A stretch of 64,000 bases of DNA from Acidobacteriota bacterium. GTDB lineage: Bacteria > Acidobacteriota > Vicinamibacteria > Vicinamibacterales > SCN-69-37. Below, in pieces: positions 4,951-13,552 of this stretch. The notes beneath the pieces are model-generated. The model was not told the origin of the DNA and searched no databases. It saw only the letters and a program-made list of their open reading frames with translations. The translations under genes and the position numbers were made by a program. The DNA is taken from NCBI GenBank assembly GCA_005799825.1, contig SYFT01000004.1:1-64000 (forward strand), given 5' to 3'. Position 1 is the first letter of the stretch. Each line of letters begins with the position of its first letter.

Positions 4951-5879
<929 letters not shown>

Positions 5880-5883
<4 letters not shown>

Positions 5884-7103
5884 GTCCGGTACTCCGCGTT
5901 AATCTTGACGTATTCCTGACTGAAATCGCAGGTCCACATCGTCGCCTCGTCTGTGCCGCCTGTGCCCAGGTCCACCGTGATGACCATCCGTTCCTGCCCA
6001 AGCACCGTGGCGGCGGCTGCGGCACGCTCGTCAAAAGGCACGCCATTGACGAAGAGATCCACATCGCCGATGTGTACGGATGCGGCGTCGAGCACAAAGC
6101 GGGCGCCCGATCGTCCGGCCGCGGCGATCAGGCGGCCCCAATTCGGGTCGCTGCCGTGGATGGCGGTCTTGACCAGCGGCGAGTTGCAGATCGTCCGCGC
6201 GGCGAGCCTCGCGTCAGCCAGCGATGCGGCCCCGGTGACCCGCAGGGTCACGAGTTTGGTAGCACCCTCGCCGCCCCGCACGATCTCTCGCGCCAGGTAG
6301 CCCGCCACCACGCGCAGCGGTTCCATTAGCGCGGGGTCCGCCGGGTCGGTGATGTCCACGCCCGAAAAGCCGGACGCCATCAGCAGCACGCAGTCGTTCG
6401 TCGAGCATTCGCCGTCCACGGTGATGGCGTTGAATGTCTCGTCGCACACCTGGCGCAGTGCCACCTTGAGGACCTCGGGGGCGACGCTGGCATCGGTCGT
6501 GAGAAAGCCGAGCATGGTGGCCATCCGCGGTTCGATCATTCCCGAGCCCTTGGTCATGCCCCCGACAGTCACGCGGCCTTTTGGTGTGTCGATGACGGCC
6601 GCACACGACTTCGGAAACGGGTCCGTCGTCATGATGGCGCGTGTGGCGTCGGCGCCGCCGTCAGTAGAAAGTGCTGCGGTCGCCTGGGCGATGCCCGCCT
6701 TGATCTTCCCGAGGTTCAACGGCACGCCGATGACGCCAGTGGACGAAACAAAGATATGGCCGGTGTCACAGCCCAGCGCCGTCGCTGCTGCCGCCGACAT
6801 TTGCCGGGCCACCTCCATGCCGGCGTCCCCCGTGCACGCGTTAGCGCAGCCGCTGTTGACGACTACGCCCGCGCAGAGGCCTCCGGACTGATCGAGGTGG
6901 TCCCGCGAGACCACGACCGGCGCAGCCACGGCCAGGTTCGTGGTGAACACCGCCGCCGCAGGCACGGGGCCGCGCGTGGACGCGATCAGGCACAAGTCGA
7001 GCGGGTGTGTGACGGGGTTCGGCTTTTTGATGCCGCAGTAGACGCCGGCCGCAGTAAACCCTGCAGGGGTGGTCACGCCGCCTTCGATGAGACGCGCCGT
7101 CAT
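5880..7103 (-). CDS. argJ: glutamate N-acetyltransferase / amino-acid acetyltransferase
   Basis: 407 aa from the ATG at 7103. The longer ORF to 7262 would add 53 residues with no family resemblance and would run into the upstream gene. ArgJ recycles the acetyl group from N-acetylornithine to glutamate and self-cleaves into two chains. The cleavage/nucleophile region is clear in TKGSGMIEPRMATMLGFLT, where the Thr of MATML is the catalytic residue. The later NSPLVKTAIHGSDPNWGR segment is also typical. The start lies 2 bp after the stop of the GNAT argA. Because a separate acetylglutamate synthase is encoded next door, ArgJ here could be the monofunctional type; sequence alone does not settle this. 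Confidence 0.95.
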
Positions 7104-7105
7104 GG

Positions 7106-7636
7106 TCAGGCCACCCGCGCGCGCGAGCGCTCCGCGGTCACCAGCGGACTGCTGCGACGATACAACTGCTGCGTCTGAAGCGGCAGCACTACGGCGTGCT
7201 GTGCGCACTTGCGAAAGAGTGGGCAGCCGACGCAGTCGGTCATGATTTTTTCGGGCACCCACACGTGCGGCACGATCGAGAACCCCTGCCGCACGAAGAA
7301 TCGCGCGTCGTGCGCGAACGCGGTGAGTGTATCGAATCCCCTCGTCCGCGCGCGTGTGCGCAGTTCGCCTACCAGGCGATATGCGAGGCCCACGCCGCGA
7401 AAGTCGCGCGAGACGACGAGCGACCGCACCTCGGCGACCTTCTTGGAAAGCGGCGCCAATTCAGCGCAGGCCGCAATCCGTCCAGTCACGTCACAGACGA
7501 TGAATCGATCAGCGTGGACGCGCAGTTCCGCTAGCTCGCGTGGCAACAAATGACCCTCGTCCAAATGGTCGGTCACAAGCGCGTGAATCGCCTCGGCGTC
7601 CGCGGCAGTCGCGGGCCGGATGATCAGATCGGTCAC
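7106..7636 (-). CDS. argA: N-acetylglutamate synthase, short GNAT type
   Basis: 176 aa, a single GNAT domain that acetylates glutamate with acetyl-CoA as the first step of the pathway. It shows VRSLVVSRDFRGVGLAYRL, matching the acetyl-CoA pyrophosphate loop. It also has a C-terminal cysteine set (TDCVGCPLFRKCAQ) that I associate with standalone ArgA-like acetyltransferases in arg clusters; those cysteines may bind a metal, which is inference. The gene sits between argD and argJ, overlapping argD by 4 bp, and this context supports the arginine role over a generic acetyltransferase. Confidence 0.85.
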   Translation of the reverse strand: MTDLIIRPATAADAEAIHALVTDHLDEGHLLPRELAELRVHADRFIVCDVTGRIAACAELAPLSKKVAEVRSLVVSRDFRGVGLAYRLVGELRTRARTRGFDTLTAFAHDARFFVRQGFSIVPHVWVPEKIMTDCVGCPLFRKCAQHAVVLPLQTQQLYRRSSPLVTAERSRARVA

Positions 7637-8850
7637 GGGGCAGTCCCTCCCGCCATGATGGCGTCTTCGAGCAGCGGCAGCGCCGCATCCACGTCCGCCG
7701 TCGTGATGATGTACGGCGGCAACAGTCTCACCACGGTGGTGCTGGTGCGGTTGATCAGCAGACCGCGCTCAAACGCGGCGGCCACGACGGGCGCCGCGTC
7801 GAACGCCAGGTCCACGCCCACCATCAGTCCCGCGCCGCGGACATCCTTGATGGCCGGGAGCCGGCGCTGCATCGCCCGCAAACCCGAGAACAACCGATCC
7901 GAAGCCGCCGACATCGACGCGGTGAGCGCAGGCGAGGACAACACCTCGAGAAACACCAGCGCCGCTCGGCAGGCCAGGAGGTTGCCGCCATACGTGCTGC
8001 CGTGATCACCCGGCGTCGCGGCGGCGGCCACGGCGTTCGAGAACATCGCGACGCCCACCGGCATCCCGGCACCCAGAGCCTTACCCAGTGCGACCAGGTC
8101 GGGAGTCAGGCCCAGCGTCTGGCTGTAAAGGAACGCACCAGTCCGCCCCGATCCGCTCTGCACTTCGTCGGCGATGAGCAGCGCGCCCGTGCGCGCGCAT
8201 GCCGCTTCAATGGCGGCCGCCATCGCCGCAGGAATCGGCCGCACTCCACCCTCGCCCTGAATCGGTTCGACGACGATGGCTGCAGTGGTGTCATCAACCA
8301 GCGCGTCGAATCCCGCCACATCAGTGGGATCCGCAAAAACAACGTTCGGGACGAGCGGCGCAAATGGCGCACGGTAGTGATCGTCCCACGTCACCGACAA
8401 CGCACCCATCGTGCGCCCGTGGAAGGAGTGGGTGAACGCGACATACTTTGTCCGACTGGTCGCGCCCTGCGAATACCAGTAGCGGCGCGCGAATTTCAGG
8501 CACGCTTCCACGGCCTCTGCGCCGCTGTTGCAGAAGAACGCACGGTCAAGTCCTGTGCGCGCGGCCAGCCGCGTGGCGACTTCGGCCTGCAGGGGATGGT
8601 AGAAGAGGTTCGACGTGTGCAGCAGGGCGCGCGCTTGGGCGCCGATGGCGTCGGCCAGGCCCTTGTGGCCATGGCCGAGAGCCACCACGCCCACGCCCGA
8701 GATGAAGTCGAGGTACTTGCACCCCTCGCCGGTGAACAGGTGTGCGCCTTCGCCGCGCTCGAACACGATCGGCGTGCGGCGATACACCTGCAGGATGTGC
8801 AGGGCTTCAAGTTCCTGAACCGAATGCGTCACCGTTGAAGATGTGTGCAT
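7633..8850 (-). CDS. argD: acetylornithine aminotransferase
   Basis: 405 aa from the ATG at 8850; the ORF extension to 9162 is only the shadow of argB. It is a PLP class-III aminotransferase converting N-acetylglutamate semialdehyde and glutamate to N-acetylornithine and 2-oxoglutarate. It shows DEVQSGSGRTG and LGKALGAGMP, in which the lysine forms the PLP Schiff base, and the N-terminal YLDFISGVGVVALGHGH. The start overlaps argB by 22 bp and the end overlaps argA by 4 bp, implying translational coupling. A succinyldiaminopimelate role is possible, since some ArgD enzymes are dual. Confidence 0.94.
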   Translation of the reverse strand: MHTSSTVTHSVQELEALHILQVYRRTPIVFERGEGAHLFTGEGCKYLDFISGVGVVALGHGHKGLADAIGAQARALLHTSNLFYHPLQAEVATRLAARTGLDRAFFCNSGAEAVEACLKFARRYWYSQGATSRTKYVAFTHSFHGRTMGALSVTWDDHYRAPFAPLVPNVVFADPTDVAGFDALVDDTTAAIVVEPIQGEGGVRPIPAAMAAAIEAACARTGALLIADEVQSGSGRTGAFLYSQTLGLTPDLVALGKALGAGMPVGVAMFSNAVAAAATPGDHGSTYGGNLLACRAALVFLEVLSSPALTASMSAASDRLFSGLRAMQRRLPAIKDVRGAGLMVGVDLAFDAAPVVAAAFERGLLINRTSTTVVRLLPPYIITTADVDAALPLLEDAIMAGGTAP

Positions 8851-9656
8851 CGCTGTCCCACCGTTTGCGCGGTCTTTCTGGCCGCGTGTTGTGTCAGAGT
8901 CGTGCCTGGCAACGCCGCCGGATTCACCCCCGCACCAAAAGTTCGACCGTCCACAAGGCGCACGCTTGGCACACCATCTTCGAGCGCCGCGCGGCAGGCG
9001 CTGAGTTTGGCCACCATGCCCGCCGTGGCGGTGCCGTCGCCAATCAATGCGGCGACGCCGGCGACCGTCACCGCGGGAATCAGTACACCGTCCGCGTCGA
9101 GGACCCCTACCGTGGTGCCGGCGATGATGAGTTCCGCACCCAGCGCCGCCGCTAGGCGGCACGCCATGACGTCCGCGTTGACGTTGAGGATACCGGCGCC
9201 CGTGAGGCCGGATTCGATCCCCAGGCTGGCCACCACCGGCACGTATCCCTGCGTCATCAACAGCTCAAGCAGCGACGGATCCGCATCATCAGGGTCGCCC
9301 ACCAGGCCCAGGTCCAATGCGCGAGCCGCTTCGGCCATTCCCGCATCCACGCCGGTCAAGCCGACGGCCCGCACGCCGGCCATTACCAGCGCCGCGACCA
9401 GTTCAGTATTGGCGGTGCCGGCGAGCACCGCCACGACCGCTTCAAGCGTGGGCGCGTCGGTCAACCGGATGCCATCCACTTTTTGTGGCGCGATCTGACG
9501 CCGCGCCAGCTCCGCATCAATCGCGCGTCCACCGCCGTGCACGACCACCAATGGCCGCGACGCCTGAAGGGCTATGGCCATCTGCGCGAACGCCGCGCGC
9601 GCTGAGGCGGTCTCGATCAGTTCGCCGCCGAGCTTGAGGACGAGTGGCCCGGTCAT
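8829..9656 (-). CDS. argB: acetylglutamate kinase
   Basis: 275 aa amino-acid-kinase fold protein that phosphorylates N-acetylglutamate with ATP. It shows the N-terminal LVLKLGGELIETASARAAF, the glycine loop VVVHGGGRAIDAEL, and the substrate region ILNVNADVMACRLAAALGAE. The start overlaps the argC stop by 4 bp. No extended N-terminal helix is visible ahead of the kinase core, so hexameric arginine feedback of the classical type is not supported by the sequence. The C-terminus runs 22 bp into argD. Confidence 0.94.
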   Translation of the reverse strand: MTGPLVLKLGGELIETASARAAFAQMAIALQASRPLVVVHGGGRAIDAELARRQIAPQKVDGIRLTDAPTLEAVVAVLAGTANTELVAALVMAGVRAVGLTGVDAGMAEAARALDLGLVGDPDDADPSLLELLMTQGYVPVVASLGIESGLTGAGILNVNADVMACRLAAALGAELIIAGTTVGVLDADGVLIPAVTVAGVAALIGDGTATAGMVAKLSACRAALEDGVPSVRLVDGRTFGAGVNPAALPGTTLTQHAARKTAQTVGQRCTHLQR

Positions 9657-10660
9657 CGCAGGCCCATCCGCTCGTCAAACCCGCACATGACGTTGAAGTT
9701 CTGGACGGCCTGCCCGGCCGCGCCCTTCACCAGATTGTCCAGGCACGCCACCATGATCAAGCGCCGGCTGGCGGCATCAAACACCCAGCCGATGTCGCAA
9801 AAGTTTGTTCCGGTCACGTGTTTGATTTCCGGCAGCGCTTCTTCGGTGAGGCGCACAAACGGCTCGTCCTTGTAGGCGCGCGCGAGGGCTTCGCCAATAG
9901 CCTCGTTGGTCGTGCCGGGTCGTGTCCTGACGTAAATGGTCTCGAGAATGCCGCGGTCAAGCGGCACCAGGTGCGGCACAAACGTCACTTCGCTGCCCAG
10001 TTCCTGTTCCATCTCAGCCACGTGACGATGGCCCATCACGCCATAGGCCGCCATCGATCCGTGGTTTTCGGAAAAGTGGGTCCGATCGCTCGCCGTCCGG
10101 CCCGCGCCCGAGATGCCAGACTTGGCGTCAATGATCAGTCCGCAGGACGTATCCACCAGGCCGGCGTTGACTAGTGGGACAAGCGCGAGCAGTGCGGCGG
10201 TGGGATAACAGCCGGGGCACGCCACCATGGAGGCGTTCTTGATGGCCTCCCGGTTGTGTTCCACCAATCCGTAGGCGACTGACCCGGGCATAAGGCTCGT
10301 GGCCGGATACCACTTCGCGCGCATGGCTTCGTCGCGAATCCGGAAGGCACCCGACAAGTCGATGACCTTGACGCCGGCCTCCAGGAGTTTCGGCGCCAGT
10401 TCCGCCGCGGCAGCCTCGGGCATCGCCAGGAACACAAACGTCGCTTCTGTCTCGAGCTGACCTCGGTCGAAGAGCTCAATCTTGCCATCCCAGGTCCGCG
10501 CGAGCCGGGGCAACGGTCGCGCGACCGACTCGGCGCTCGACGACATGGCGGCCACAATGTGCACCTTCGGGTGCCAAACCAGCAGATTCAACAATTCCTG
10601 GCCCGCATAACCGGTGGCCCCGGCAATCGCCACACGAACTGGAACTGGATATATATTCAT
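9653..10660 (-). CDS. argC: N-acetyl-gamma-glutamyl-phosphate reductase
   Basis: 335 aa NADPH-dependent reductase, first gene of the minus-strand arg operon. It shows the Rossmann motif VAIAGATGYAGQELL, the active-site cysteine in ACPGCYPTAALLAL, and the catalytic histidine region MGHRHVAEMEQEL. The ATG at 10660 lies only about 5 nt from the transcription start predicted from the TTGATT-17-TATACT promoter, and no Shine-Dalgarno sequence is seen, so the mRNA may be nearly leaderless. A GTG at 10633, just before the Rossmann motif, is an alternative start that would drop nine residues. Confidence 0.94.
   Translation of the reverse strand: MNIYPVPVRVAIAGATGYAGQELLNLLVWHPKVHIVAAMSSSAESVARPLPRLARTWDGKIELFDRGQLETEATFVFLAMPEAAAAELAPKLLEAGVKVIDLSGAFRIRDEAMRAKWYPATSLMPGSVAYGLVEHNREAIKNASMVACPGCYPTAALLALVPLVNAGLVDTSCGLIIDAKSGISGAGRTASDRTHFSENHGSMAAYGVMGHRHVAEMEQELGSEVTFVPHLVPLDRGILETIYVRTRPGTTNEAIGEALARAYKDEPFVRLTEEALPEIKHVTGTNFCDIGWVFDAASRRLIMVACLDNLVKGAAGQAVQNFNVMCGFDERMGLR
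10646..10659. promoter_or_regulatory. candidate ARG box (ArgR operator) over the argC start
   Basis: The sequence TGGATATATATTCA matches the ArgR consensus TGAATwwwwATTCA at all but one position. It lies over codons 1-5 of argC and just downstream of its predicted promoter, where bound ArgR would block initiation. argR itself is the divergent neighbour. Binding is inferred from the match and the context. Confidence 0.55.
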
Positions 10661-10761: not shown

Positions 10762-10775
10762 TGAATACTTATGAA
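10762..10775. promoter_or_regulatory. weak candidate ArgR site over the argR start
   Basis: TGAATACTTATGAA has a perfect left half-site (TGAAT) and a 3-of-5 right half, and it overlaps the argR ATG. A TATACT hexamer at 10745-10750 could be the argR -10 element, but no good -35 is visible. Autoregulation is plausible and unproven. Confidence 0.3.
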
Positions 10776-11220
10776 GTCTTGGCGCCAATCGCAGATTCTC
10801 GAAATTGTGGACCAGGAGGCCGTGGCATCCCAGGAGGAACTGCGGCGTCATCTCGCGGGCAAGGGTATTGAGGCGACTCAGGCCACGATCTCTCGCGACC
10901 TGAAGGAACTGGAGTTGGTGAAGCGGGCCGGCGACGGGGCGTACGTGCGGCCCGGTATTGAGCGCAGTTCCCCAGCGACCGATGAGCAATTGCGACGCGC
11001 CGTGGCGACGCTTGTGCGCAATCTCGAGCGTGTCGGCAATCTGGTGGTGTTGCGCACCGACCCCGGGCAGGCTCAGCCGGTGGCGATCCTGATCGACAGG
11101 GCGCAACCGGCTGAGGTCGCCGGCACGATTGCCGGCGACGACACGATTCTCATCATCGGTCGAGGCGAAGACGCCGCGCGCGCGCTTGAAACACGGTGGA
11201 ACGGAGTGGTGAAAGGGTGA
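10771..11220 (+). CDS. argR: arginine repressor
   Basis: 149 aa, the normal ArgR size. The N-terminal winged helix-turn-helix (about 1-70) includes QEELRRHLAGKGIEATQATISRDL in continuous sequence. The C-terminal arginine-binding and oligomerisation domain (about 80-149) shows VVLRTDPGQAQPVAILIDRA and GTIAGDDTILIIGR, the segment that contacts arginine in known ArgR proteins. It is divergent from argC across a 110-bp AT-rich spacer and is followed immediately by the argG-like and argH genes, so it probably controls both arms of the cluster. Confidence 0.94.
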   Translation: MKSWRQSQILEIVDQEAVASQEELRRHLAGKGIEATQATISRDLKELELVKRAGDGAYVRPGIERSSPATDEQLRRAVATLVRNLERVGNLVVLRTDPGQAQPVAILIDRAQPAEVAGTIAGDDTILIIGRGEDAARALETRWNGVVKG

Positions 11221-12158
11221 CTCCGACTGGACATGTCATTCTGCTGGCCTACGCCGGCGATTTCGAGTCGTCGGTGGCAGTGGCGTGGCTCGAGGAGCAA
11301 TATCAGACGGATGTGGTGACGATGACCCTCGACTTTGGGCAAGGTAATGATCTGGCCGATGTGCGCGATCGCGCGCTGGCGCTCGGCGCCGTGCGTGCGC
11401 ACGTCCTTGATGTGCGCGAAGAGTTTGCCCGCACCGCCATGGCGCCGGCGCTGGCCTTGGGTGTGGGCGAACCACGGGTGGCTGCACTCGCGCGGCCGAT
11501 GGTGGCCAGGTATTTGGCGCAGGTCGCCGCGATTGAGGGCACGGCCCTCGTGGCCCATGGCAGTCATGTGCCTCAGTCGGACGCCGGAGGTCTCGATGCA
11601 CTGGTGGCGGCTGGCAGCGGTGAACTGCGCGTGATGGCGCCCTGCCGCGATTGGACGTTGGCTCCCCCGCAGGTGTTACCTTTCGCGAGAGCCAGGGGTG
11701 TGCCGTTGCCGTCCGCGGTGGATCATCTGAGCGCCGTGCGTAACCTGTGGGGCCGCGCGCTCACCGGCAACCTGCTGAGCGACCCTTGGGCCGAAGTGCC
11801 GCCAGCCGACTTCACGCTCACGCGCCCGGTCGCGGACTGGTCTGATACTCCGGCGATGCTCGATCTTGAGTTTGCAGACGGAGTGCCGGTGTCACTCAAT
11901 GGCGTGGTGATGCCTCTGATCGAACTGTTGCCCAGTCTGGAAACCATCGCGGGATCTCGCGGCCTTGGCCGGCTCGACTTTCCCGCCATCGCTGGCGTGC
12001 GCCCGAGAATCGTCGAAGAAGCGCCCGCGCCCGTCGTCCTGCACCAGGCGATGAAAGCGCTGTCAGCGGTGGTGCCTGCCATGTGGCCGGCGGTGCGCGG
12101 AACCGTGCGATTCAACTGTCATCTGGGCGAGTGCCATATCGAAGAGGTGTCCATCTGA
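11217..12158 (+). CDS. degenerate argininosuccinate synthase homologue
   Basis: 313 aa from the GTG at 11217, which overlaps the argR stop as GTGA and has GGAGTGG and GAAAGG upstream; typical ArgG is about 400 aa. Family landmarks remain: FGQGNDLADVRDRAL, RNLWGRALTGNLLSDPW, and VPVSLNGVVMPLIELL. However, the ATP-binding motif SGGLDTS reads AGDFESS (residues 13-19), the GKGNDQVRFE substrate segment is replaced by SHVPQSDAGGLDA, and much of the C-terminal region is deleted. Position between argR and argH is exactly where argG belongs. Either it is a strongly altered enzyme or a non-catalytic relic or regulator, with the true argG elsewhere. The reading frame is intact, which argues against simple decay. 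Confidence 0.8.
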   Translation: MTPTGHVILLAYAGDFESSVAVAWLEEQYQTDVVTMTLDFGQGNDLADVRDRALALGAVRAHVLDVREEFARTAMAPALALGVGEPRVAALARPMVARYLAQVAAIEGTALVAHGSHVPQSDAGGLDALVAAGSGELRVMAPCRDWTLAPPQVLPFARARGVPLPSAVDHLSAVRNLWGRALTGNLLSDPWAEVPPADFTLTRPVADWSDTPAMLDLEFADGVPVSLNGVVMPLIELLPSLETIAGSRGLGRLDFPAIAGVRPRIVEEAPAPVVLHQAMKALSAVVPAMWPAVRGTVRFNCHLGECHIEEVSI

Positions 12159-13552
12159 TGTCGAACCTATGGAGTGGCCGATTCGAGGGTGCGCCCAACG
12201 CCGAGGTCTTCGATTTTGGCAAGTCGCTGGGCGTGGACAAGCGGCTGATTGACGACGACCTGACCGGCAGCAGCGCATGGGCGCAGGCGCTGTCGAAAGC
12301 CGGCGTACTGACGGCGGCCGACACTGATGCGATTGTCTCGGGTTTGGAGGCCGTGCGCGCGGCGGTGCATGCCGACCCGACCCTGCTCGATCGCGCTGAT
12401 GACGAGGACGTGCATGCGTTCGTGGAGCGTGAACTGGTGGCCCGCATCGGGGACGCCGGCAAACGGCTGCATACCGGCCGCTCGCGCAACGAGCAGGTCT
12501 CAGTGGACTTCCGCCTGTACTTGCGGCGACGGATTCCCGCGCTGCAACGTGGCGTGGTGGCAGTGGTCGAAGCGATGGTCTCGCAGGCAGAATGGGCAGG
12601 GCAGGCGACCATGCCGTCGTACACGCACCTGCGCCGCGCCCAGCCTGTCCTTGTGGCGCATGTCTGGCTCTCGCATGCGGCGGCCCTTCGACGCGATTGG
12701 GACCGGCTCGAGACCGCCCGCCGCGAAGCGGACCTGATGCCGCTGGGGTCGGGCGCCATTGCCGGCACGAGCTATCCAATCGACACCGAGTTCCTGGCGC
12801 GGACACTCGGGTTTTCCAGGGTCACCCTGAACAGCATCGACACATCGGGCGATCGGGATTTTGTCGCGAGTTTTCTCTTCGCCTGCGCGATGTGCATGAC
12901 ACGACTGAGCCGGCTCGCCGAAGACGTCATTCTGTTCACGAGCGAAGAATTCGGCTTCTTCGAACTGGCCGACGAGGTGGCCACCGGTTCCAGTCTCATG
13001 CCGCAGAAGAAGAACCCCGACCCCATGGAACTGGTGCGCGGGAAAACCGGGCGCGCGATCGGGGTGCTGGCGGGCTGGTTGGCGACGATGAAAGGGCTGC
13101 CTCTTGGCTACAACAAGGACCTGCAGGAAGACAAGGCTCTGGCGTTCGGAGCCGAGGACGACCTGGCAGGTTGCCTGATGACCTGCTCTGCAGTGGTCCG
13201 CACCCTGACTCCACGCCCGGCTGTGATGCGGCAGGCGGCGTCCGGATTGCTCCTGGCGACCGAGGTGGCCGACTACCTTGTAGGCCGAGGCCTGCCGTTT
13301 CGGACGGCCCATGAAGTCTCCGGCCAGATCGTCCGAGACTTGTATGAGACGGGTCGCGATTTTTCGTCGCTCGACCTTCAAAACTGGCAGCAGTATCACC
13401 TGCTGTTTGAGGAGGGGGTGTTTCAGGCCATCACGCCCGAGGCGGCCGTCGCCGCCCGTCTGACCCCGCAATCGACCGGCCCGGGGCCCGTCGAGGCTGC
13501 CTTAAACGAGACAAGACGGTGGCTTACGGACTTTTCGTCGCCGCCTGGCTGA
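12158..13552 (+). CDS. argH: argininosuccinate lyase
   Basis: 464 aa from the ATG at 12158, which shares one base with the preceding stop (TGATG); the upstream ORF extension is a shadow. It cleaves argininosuccinate to arginine and fumarate, the last step of the pathway. It begins with the typical LWSGRFEGAP and carries the fumarase-superfamily signature GSSLMPQKKNPDPME, plus HTGRSRNEQVSVDFRLYLRR and THLRRAQPV. The length is normal. It is the third gene of the argR-argG-like-argH transcription unit. Confidence 0.95.
   Translation: MSNLWSGRFEGAPNAEVFDFGKSLGVDKRLIDDDLTGSSAWAQALSKAGVLTAADTDAIVSGLEAVRAAVHADPTLLDRADDEDVHAFVERELVARIGDAGKRLHTGRSRNEQVSVDFRLYLRRRIPALQRGVVAVVEAMVSQAEWAGQATMPSYTHLRRAQPVLVAHVWLSHAAALRRDWDRLETARREADLMPLGSGAIAGTSYPIDTEFLARTLGFSRVTLNSIDTSGDRDFVASFLFACAMCMTRLSRLAEDVILFTSEEFGFFELADEVATGSSLMPQKKNPDPMELVRGKTGRAIGVLAGWLATMKGLPLGYNKDLQEDKALAFGAEDDLAGCLMTCSAVVRTLTPRPAVMRQAASGLLLATEVADYLVGRGLPFRTAHEVSGQIVRDLYETGRDFSSLDLQNWQQYHLLFEEGVFQAITPEAAVAARLTPQSTGPGPVEAALNETRRWLTDFSSPPG

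Follow-up and report, generated by a model that had tools for sequence, protein, structure and literature searches.

The window, i.e., the whole stretch of 64,000 nucleotides analyzed here, carries an arginine biosynthesis cluster in which the position between argR and argH is occupied by a homologue of the argininosuccinate synthase gene argG, hereafter referred to as pseudo-argG (Table 1). The earlier note on this DNA had described an intact frame that overlaps both neighbors in a coupled manner, and this description holds, with no internal stop codon and with bases shared at either end. Within the remainder of the cluster, argF was assigned by NCBIfam, while argB, argD, argJ, and a GNAT acetyltransferase-like frame were assigned from their reading frames and from a gene order conserved in relatives. 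The GNAT-like frame sits between argD and argJ and possibly encodes N-acetylglutamate synthase.

Table 1. Genes and features of the arginine cluster (positions in the window)
Feature	Position	Strand	Remarks
argB, argD, GNAT-like acetyltransferase frame (7106..7636), argJ, argF	4951..9656	-	remaining arginine cluster
argC	9653..10660	-	arg gene, divergently transcribed
argR, arginine repressor	10771..11220	+	overlaps pseudo-argG by 4 bases (stop and start share GTGA, 11217..11220)
pseudo-argG	11217..12158	+	313 aa; GTG start; ArgG homologue predicted to lack a working active site
Eroded PP-loop, residues 11-19	11247..11273	+	AYAGDFESS; canonical AYSGGLDTS
Retained core, residues 37-70	11325..11426	+	TLDFGQGNDLADVRDRALALGAVRAHVLDVREEF; several columns 100% identical in 55 degenerate copies
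Former aspartate/citrulline/ATP segment, residues 115-125	11559..11591	+	GSHVPQSDAGG; canonical G[AC]TGKGNDQVR
C-terminal end after internal deletion	12075..12158	+	retains the last beta strands but not the oligomerisation tail (GFIKIWGLP)
argH, argininosuccinate lyase	12158..13552	+	505 bits against a cut-off of 279.5; overlaps pseudo-argG by 1 base (TGATG; argH ATG at 12158)

The reading of the slot gene as an ArgG homologue was confirmed by matches to both ArgG Pfam domains, PF00764 (102 bits, 5e-29) and PF20979 (73 bits, 4e-20), each with a cut-off of 27, and its closest solved relative is the Thermus thermophilus ArgG (1j1z, E 2e-47). The protein nevertheless reaches none of the curated ArgG equivalog cut-offs and falls short by a wide margin, with 198 bits against 334 for PRK00509, 177 against 268 for TIGR00032, and 158 against 512 for another ArgG equivalog. 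As in type I ArgG (PRK00509/TIGR00032; 1j1z), it lies in the orthologous operon slot and contains the same two Pfam domains in the same order, and it shares 43-51% identity with those slot ArgGs of its order that are intact; it differs from this family at its ligand-binding positions and in its C-terminal part. The SGGxDTS PP-loop of N-type ATP pyrophosphatases is replaced by AGDFESS, as the earlier note had observed, and the GKGNDQVRFE active-site segment that it had reported as absent is indeed gone, since HGSHVPQSDAGG stands in place of the canonical HGATGKGNDQVR. When 16 ligand or ATP-contact residues were compiled from a deep mutational study of human argininosuccinate synthase (ASS; PMC13289927), 12 were found to be replaced in pseudo-argG, leaving R93, G115, D122, and S172. 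All eight citrulline and aspartate contacts (Y84, T116, N120, R124, S182, E184, E258, and Y270 in T. thermophilus numbering) are among the positions replaced, the citrulline-site residues E258 and Y270 included. These contact positions are highly intolerant to change in human ASS (PMC13289927).

The shortening of the C-terminal part noted earlier is also real but is not a simple truncation. A stretch of approximately 40 residues is missing internally, as is the entire tail beyond the last beta strand, while the last strand pair survives the internal deletion (RGTVRFNCHLGECHI, canonical VTGTVRLKLFKG). The ASS tail forms an oligomerisation helix and part of the active site of the neighboring subunit, which in the human enzyme is fed by a C-terminal extended loop (PMC13289927). 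Both the loop and the helix are missing from pseudo-argG and from nearly all other degenerate copies described below. With most of its ligand residues and the oligomerisation tail missing, pseudo-argG, judging from its sequence, cannot be an ordinary argininosuccinate synthase and is with high probability dead as such. Core columns of the fold are retained in the degenerate copies; an AlphaFold model of pseudo-ArgG built from a three-sequence alignment reached a pLDDT of only 42 and gave no reliable structure.

The earlier note had also suggested that argG was replaced by a copy elsewhere, and this is supported. A whole-genome search returned one further ArgG in the rest of the same genome, namely, the first 129 residues, with SGGLDTS, of a PRK05370-type (Escherichia coli-type) protein cut by the edge of contig C33. 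The sister genome G006 encodes a complete second ArgG that is 97% identical to this fragment over the corresponding part and scores 866 bits on PRK05370 (cut-off 657), against 48 bits for the G006 slot protein. It is thus very likely, from these assignments, that the conversion of citrulline to argininosuccinate is served by a gene outside the operon. According to its family assignment, the E. coli-type ArgG would perform the same reaction as the ancestral slot gene and is a probable functional replacement, although it is encoded outside the operon and is only distantly related to the slot protein.

An equivalent of pseudo-argG with an intact frame is present in all six other genomes of the genus. 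The window gene is also 91% identical to a gene of the independently named assembly Baikal-deep-G11, an acidobacterial metagenome-assembled genome from Lake Baikal, and eroded equivalents occur in two single-contig genomes of another family (G016:C1, 7.48 Mb; G028:C1, 6.47 Mb). A Sphingomonas locus (L005) was considered as a relative of the degenerate group and rejected, its product being an ordinary intact ArgG.

We then surveyed the argR-argH slot in 162 genomes of the order and in 31 others of the same class. Within the order, the slot holds either an intact full-length ArgG or a short eroded one, and the copies were sorted into 65 eroded, 7 with loss of the tail only, 28 intact, and 9 in which the gene is lost or reduced to a fragment. 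In the 31 other genomes, only ArgG frames of roughly ordinary length, as judged by frame length, were present among the matches listed. All 65 degenerate copies between argR and argH appear to be single frames without internal stops. The tail-only class (G010, G012, G036, G030, G063, G081, and G118) shows at most small changes at the active site, which is nearly intact. One of its genera (G010, G012) belongs to family f1 together with eroded genera; its contact residues are almost complete and only the tail is missing. Loss of the tail seems to have been an early event in several lineages.

Decay of the slot gene goes together with the presence of a second ArgG, which occurs in 56 of the 65 genomes with an eroded copy, in all 9 gene-less or fragment genomes, and in 8 of the 28 with an intact copy (Fisher p = 1.5e-8 in a simple count that ignores shared ancestry). 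Over phylogenetically independent pairs, of which few were informative, the association was not significant. The second ArgG of family f4 belongs to another type than that of E. coli, and erosion has therefore accompanied at least two kinds of replacement. A second ArgG was absent from 9 of the 65 eroded genomes, against 4.8 expected (P = 0.04). Three of the genomes lacking a detectable second copy (G018, L114; G031, L049; G047, L054) carry an eroded slot copy and argH and are 97-98% complete, compared with about 0.3 such genomes expected from incompleteness alone; a recently acquired gene may have been misbinned there, or another enzyme may serve.

To estimate the number of inactivation events, a maximum-likelihood tree was built from the flanking-gene products ArgR, ArgC, and ArgH, and active-site loss was taken as irreversible. 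The best tree required 21 losses, which fell to 13 when branches with support below 80 were collapsed and to 10 when those below 95 were collapsed, counts that could drop if whole operons with an intact argG were transferred. Reversible parsimony on the flanking-gene tree gave 13 changes. The active site of the slot gene has thus been lost independently at least about 10 times, and the PP-loop, the TGKGND segment, E258/Y270, and the tail were lost in differing ways across lineages.

To measure selection on the dead protein, dN/dS was calculated by pairwise maximum likelihood between relatives in which both copies are eroded and the ancestor was very probably eroded too. For pseudo-argG of the window genome and that of G006, dN/dS was 0.082 (bootstrap 0.045-0.125; dS 0.55), and four other eroded pairs, unsaturated with dS up to 1.6, gave 0.080, 0.135, 0.078, and 0.154, with likelihood ratios against dN/dS = 1 of 134 to 180. 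Values for argH in the same pairs ranged from 0.017 to 0.045, the constraint on the slot gene being about 2-5 times weaker. About 12 stop codons would be expected under a neutral divergence of 0.55 per site, and none is present. Since dN/dS is 0.08-0.15 between relatives that were already degenerate, decay is not neutral, and these values together with the absence of stops rule out a neutral pseudogene in the sampled pairs. The earlier note had named scattered decaying copies with dN/dS near 1 as evidence against its reading; what we found is dN/dS far below 1, yet copies have been lost in some lineages.

Constraint is unevenly distributed along the protein. Among columns conserved in canonical ArgG, those that touch ligands are retained in 55 degenerate copies at a median of 0.42, compared to 0.55 for the others (p = 4e-10), and survival at single ligand columns is as low as 2% for N120, 4% for E258, 9% for S173, 11% for T116, and 13% for D12. 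Conversely, several core columns of residues 36-60, as well as E106 and A112, are kept in 55 of 55 copies. The blocks kept along the chain are residues 1-75, 91-105, 211-255, 271-285, and 331-345; those lost (76-90, 106-195, 256-270, and 346-390) include the tail and the greater part of the active site. Every column that is at least 90% conserved in the eroded group carries the ancestral ArgG residue, indicating that no new shared motif has arisen. Fourfold-site diversity in the conserved segments equals that elsewhere; constraint therefore acts on the protein, and a DNA-level constraint such as an internal promoter was rejected. Loss is hence concentrated in the active-site segments while the core is kept, under purifying selection after inactivation. 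The dead slot argG is real, widespread among the Acidobacteriota of this order, and under selection.

The slot gene is dispensable in the long run, as it is absent or fragmentary in several genomes. It is gone from G039, G040, G106, G119, G129, and G131, in which argR and argH are adjacent, is down to fragments in G046, G102, and G126, and has shrunken to 180-290 residues in G110, G115, G120, and G127. In operons without the slot gene, argR and argH overlap or are separated by 4-137 bases, a layout that appears functional, and argR-argH coupling was accordingly rejected as the sole reason for the slot gene. At L051 (G058), the eroded gene and argH lie approximately 1.9 kb apart owing to additional sequence, showing that the coupling is not always tight. 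When gene-less lineages were compared with their gene-keeping sisters in a relative-rate test, ArgH, ArgR, and ArgC gave no consistent signal; since neither ArgH nor ArgR accelerates consistently after loss of the slot gene, these rates point to no particular partner.

Taken together, the slot gene is probably a pseudoenzyme, that is, the ancestral operon argG, which a second argG released from catalysis and which is retained for a role that is non-catalytic and dispensable. A second, complete argG would have been acquired elsewhere in the genome, active-site loss in the operon argG would have followed, on many occasions across related families, and purifying selection would afterwards have kept the core of the fold and not the active site. 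The product would fold but not catalyze and would be made alongside ArgR and ArgH, and it may act by protein contact, most plausibly with ArgH or another pathway enzyme, as a scaffold or regulator. We favor such a role in arginine biosynthesis, since the gene keeps its place between argR and argH irrespective of which type of ArgG replaces it. The benefit would be modest, as some lineages later shrink or lose the gene. Of the earlier proposal of a regulatory or scaffolding pseudoenzyme, the part concerning a dead protein under selection is upheld by dN/dS and by the contact losses, while the regulatory or scaffolding role is one that we infer. A broader version, which we offer tentatively, is that bacterial ArgG does a second job in the arg operon that is not catalytic and can be separated from making argininosuccinate, and that the native protein, its active site lost after a foreign ArgG took over the chemistry, was kept for that job alone in at least 10 parallel cases, perhaps touching ArgH or ArgR via its well-conserved N-terminal core.

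Alternatively, the slot gene could be a slow relic, left without a job after its displacement, with its frame kept by the translational coupling of argR, pseudo-argG, and argH and by selection against toxic or polar intermediates until it is finally deleted. The states observed can be arranged in a graded series consistent with such a course, from loss of the tail (G010, G012, G036, G063, and G118) through erosion of the site to shrunken, fragmentary, and absent genes, and the slot gene is less constrained than its neighbors. We nonetheless consider this rather unlikely, since the low dN/dS after inactivation and the columns invariant in 55 copies fit poorly with a loss of protein-level constraint, and the gene-less operons show that coupling needs no slot gene. 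It is also improbable that the ArgG fold has gained a new catalytic activity, whether this would be a second way of making argininosuccinate from citrulline or some other ligation, and the new chemistry that the earlier note had considered was not borne out: ArgG-fold proteins with other chemistry exist, such as the distantly related nitrile synthetase (9lei, 9leh), three nearly complete genomes have no second ArgG that we could find, and family f2 copies keep an SGGxRSS-like loop, but the ligand positions are what erodes, in ways that differ by lineage and leave no new residue common to the degenerate copies, and most carriers have an intact ArgG. Finally, an assembly or binning artefact is hardly conceivable even though the source is a metagenome-assembled genome in 111 contigs and 93.5% complete, as the gene in Baikal-deep-G11, the counterparts in every one of the seven genomes that represent the genus, and those in the two single-contig genomes rule out assembly error as the origin of the eroded site, and no version with SGGxDTS occupies the slot anywhere in the genus.

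Compared with known systems, the pseudoenzyme reading has partial parallels. NF038212 (argG_rel) is likewise an ArgG homologue that NCBI separates from true ArgG, but pseudo-argG is not a member, at 77 bits against a cut-off of 425. Nitrile synthetase shares with it an ArgG-like fold family and a changed function; the match is of 45 bits, with no evidence of common chemistry. Inactive metallopeptidase homologues (PMC11266112) and PRPS-associated lineages (PMC13252144) resemble it in having lost catalytic residues while the fold core is under selection and an active relative is present in the same cell. The present case differs in that a single operon slot has undergone the switch repeatedly, once a second enzyme had been gained. 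Literature searches on ArgG combined with pseudoenzyme or xenolog returned no described ArgG case, and those on acidobacterial argG returned nothing on point. Pseudoenzymes have mostly been studied singly. In the argR-argH slot, the same essential enzyme has been turned many times in parallel into a protein that is dead yet under selection. Since related genomes show it intact, intermediate, dead, shrunken, or absent, the slot allows one to ask what besides catalysis is selected. On the practical side, the label argG in these operons does not equal the ArgG enzyme, and pathway annotation based on the operon only picks the wrong gene.

Several further variants were encountered in the survey. 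In family f2, a block of related copies (e.g., L048, L078, and L080-L082) has the PP-loop aspartate changed to arginine (SGGLRSS, SGGWRSS), and in f1, f4, and single f6 copies the second PP-loop glycine is changed to aspartate (AGD). In the f9 genomes G021 and G150-G155 (L046, L111), the only ArgG match belongs to yet a different kind (LVSGGLDSVT, GATGRGNDQTR), and neither argR nor argH was matched in the pieces scanned; this ArgG is apparently a third replacement. In family f11, the canonical slot argG of G043 (L148) and G052 (L076) is split over two frames and no other ArgG was found in either genome, the split reflecting either base-calling errors or very recent frameshifts. G067 and G068 (L135, L136) carry a full-length slot ArgG with an intact PP-loop, in which GKGND is changed to GKDND and R124 to G, in addition to a second ArgG, a state that looks like the first step of inactivation.
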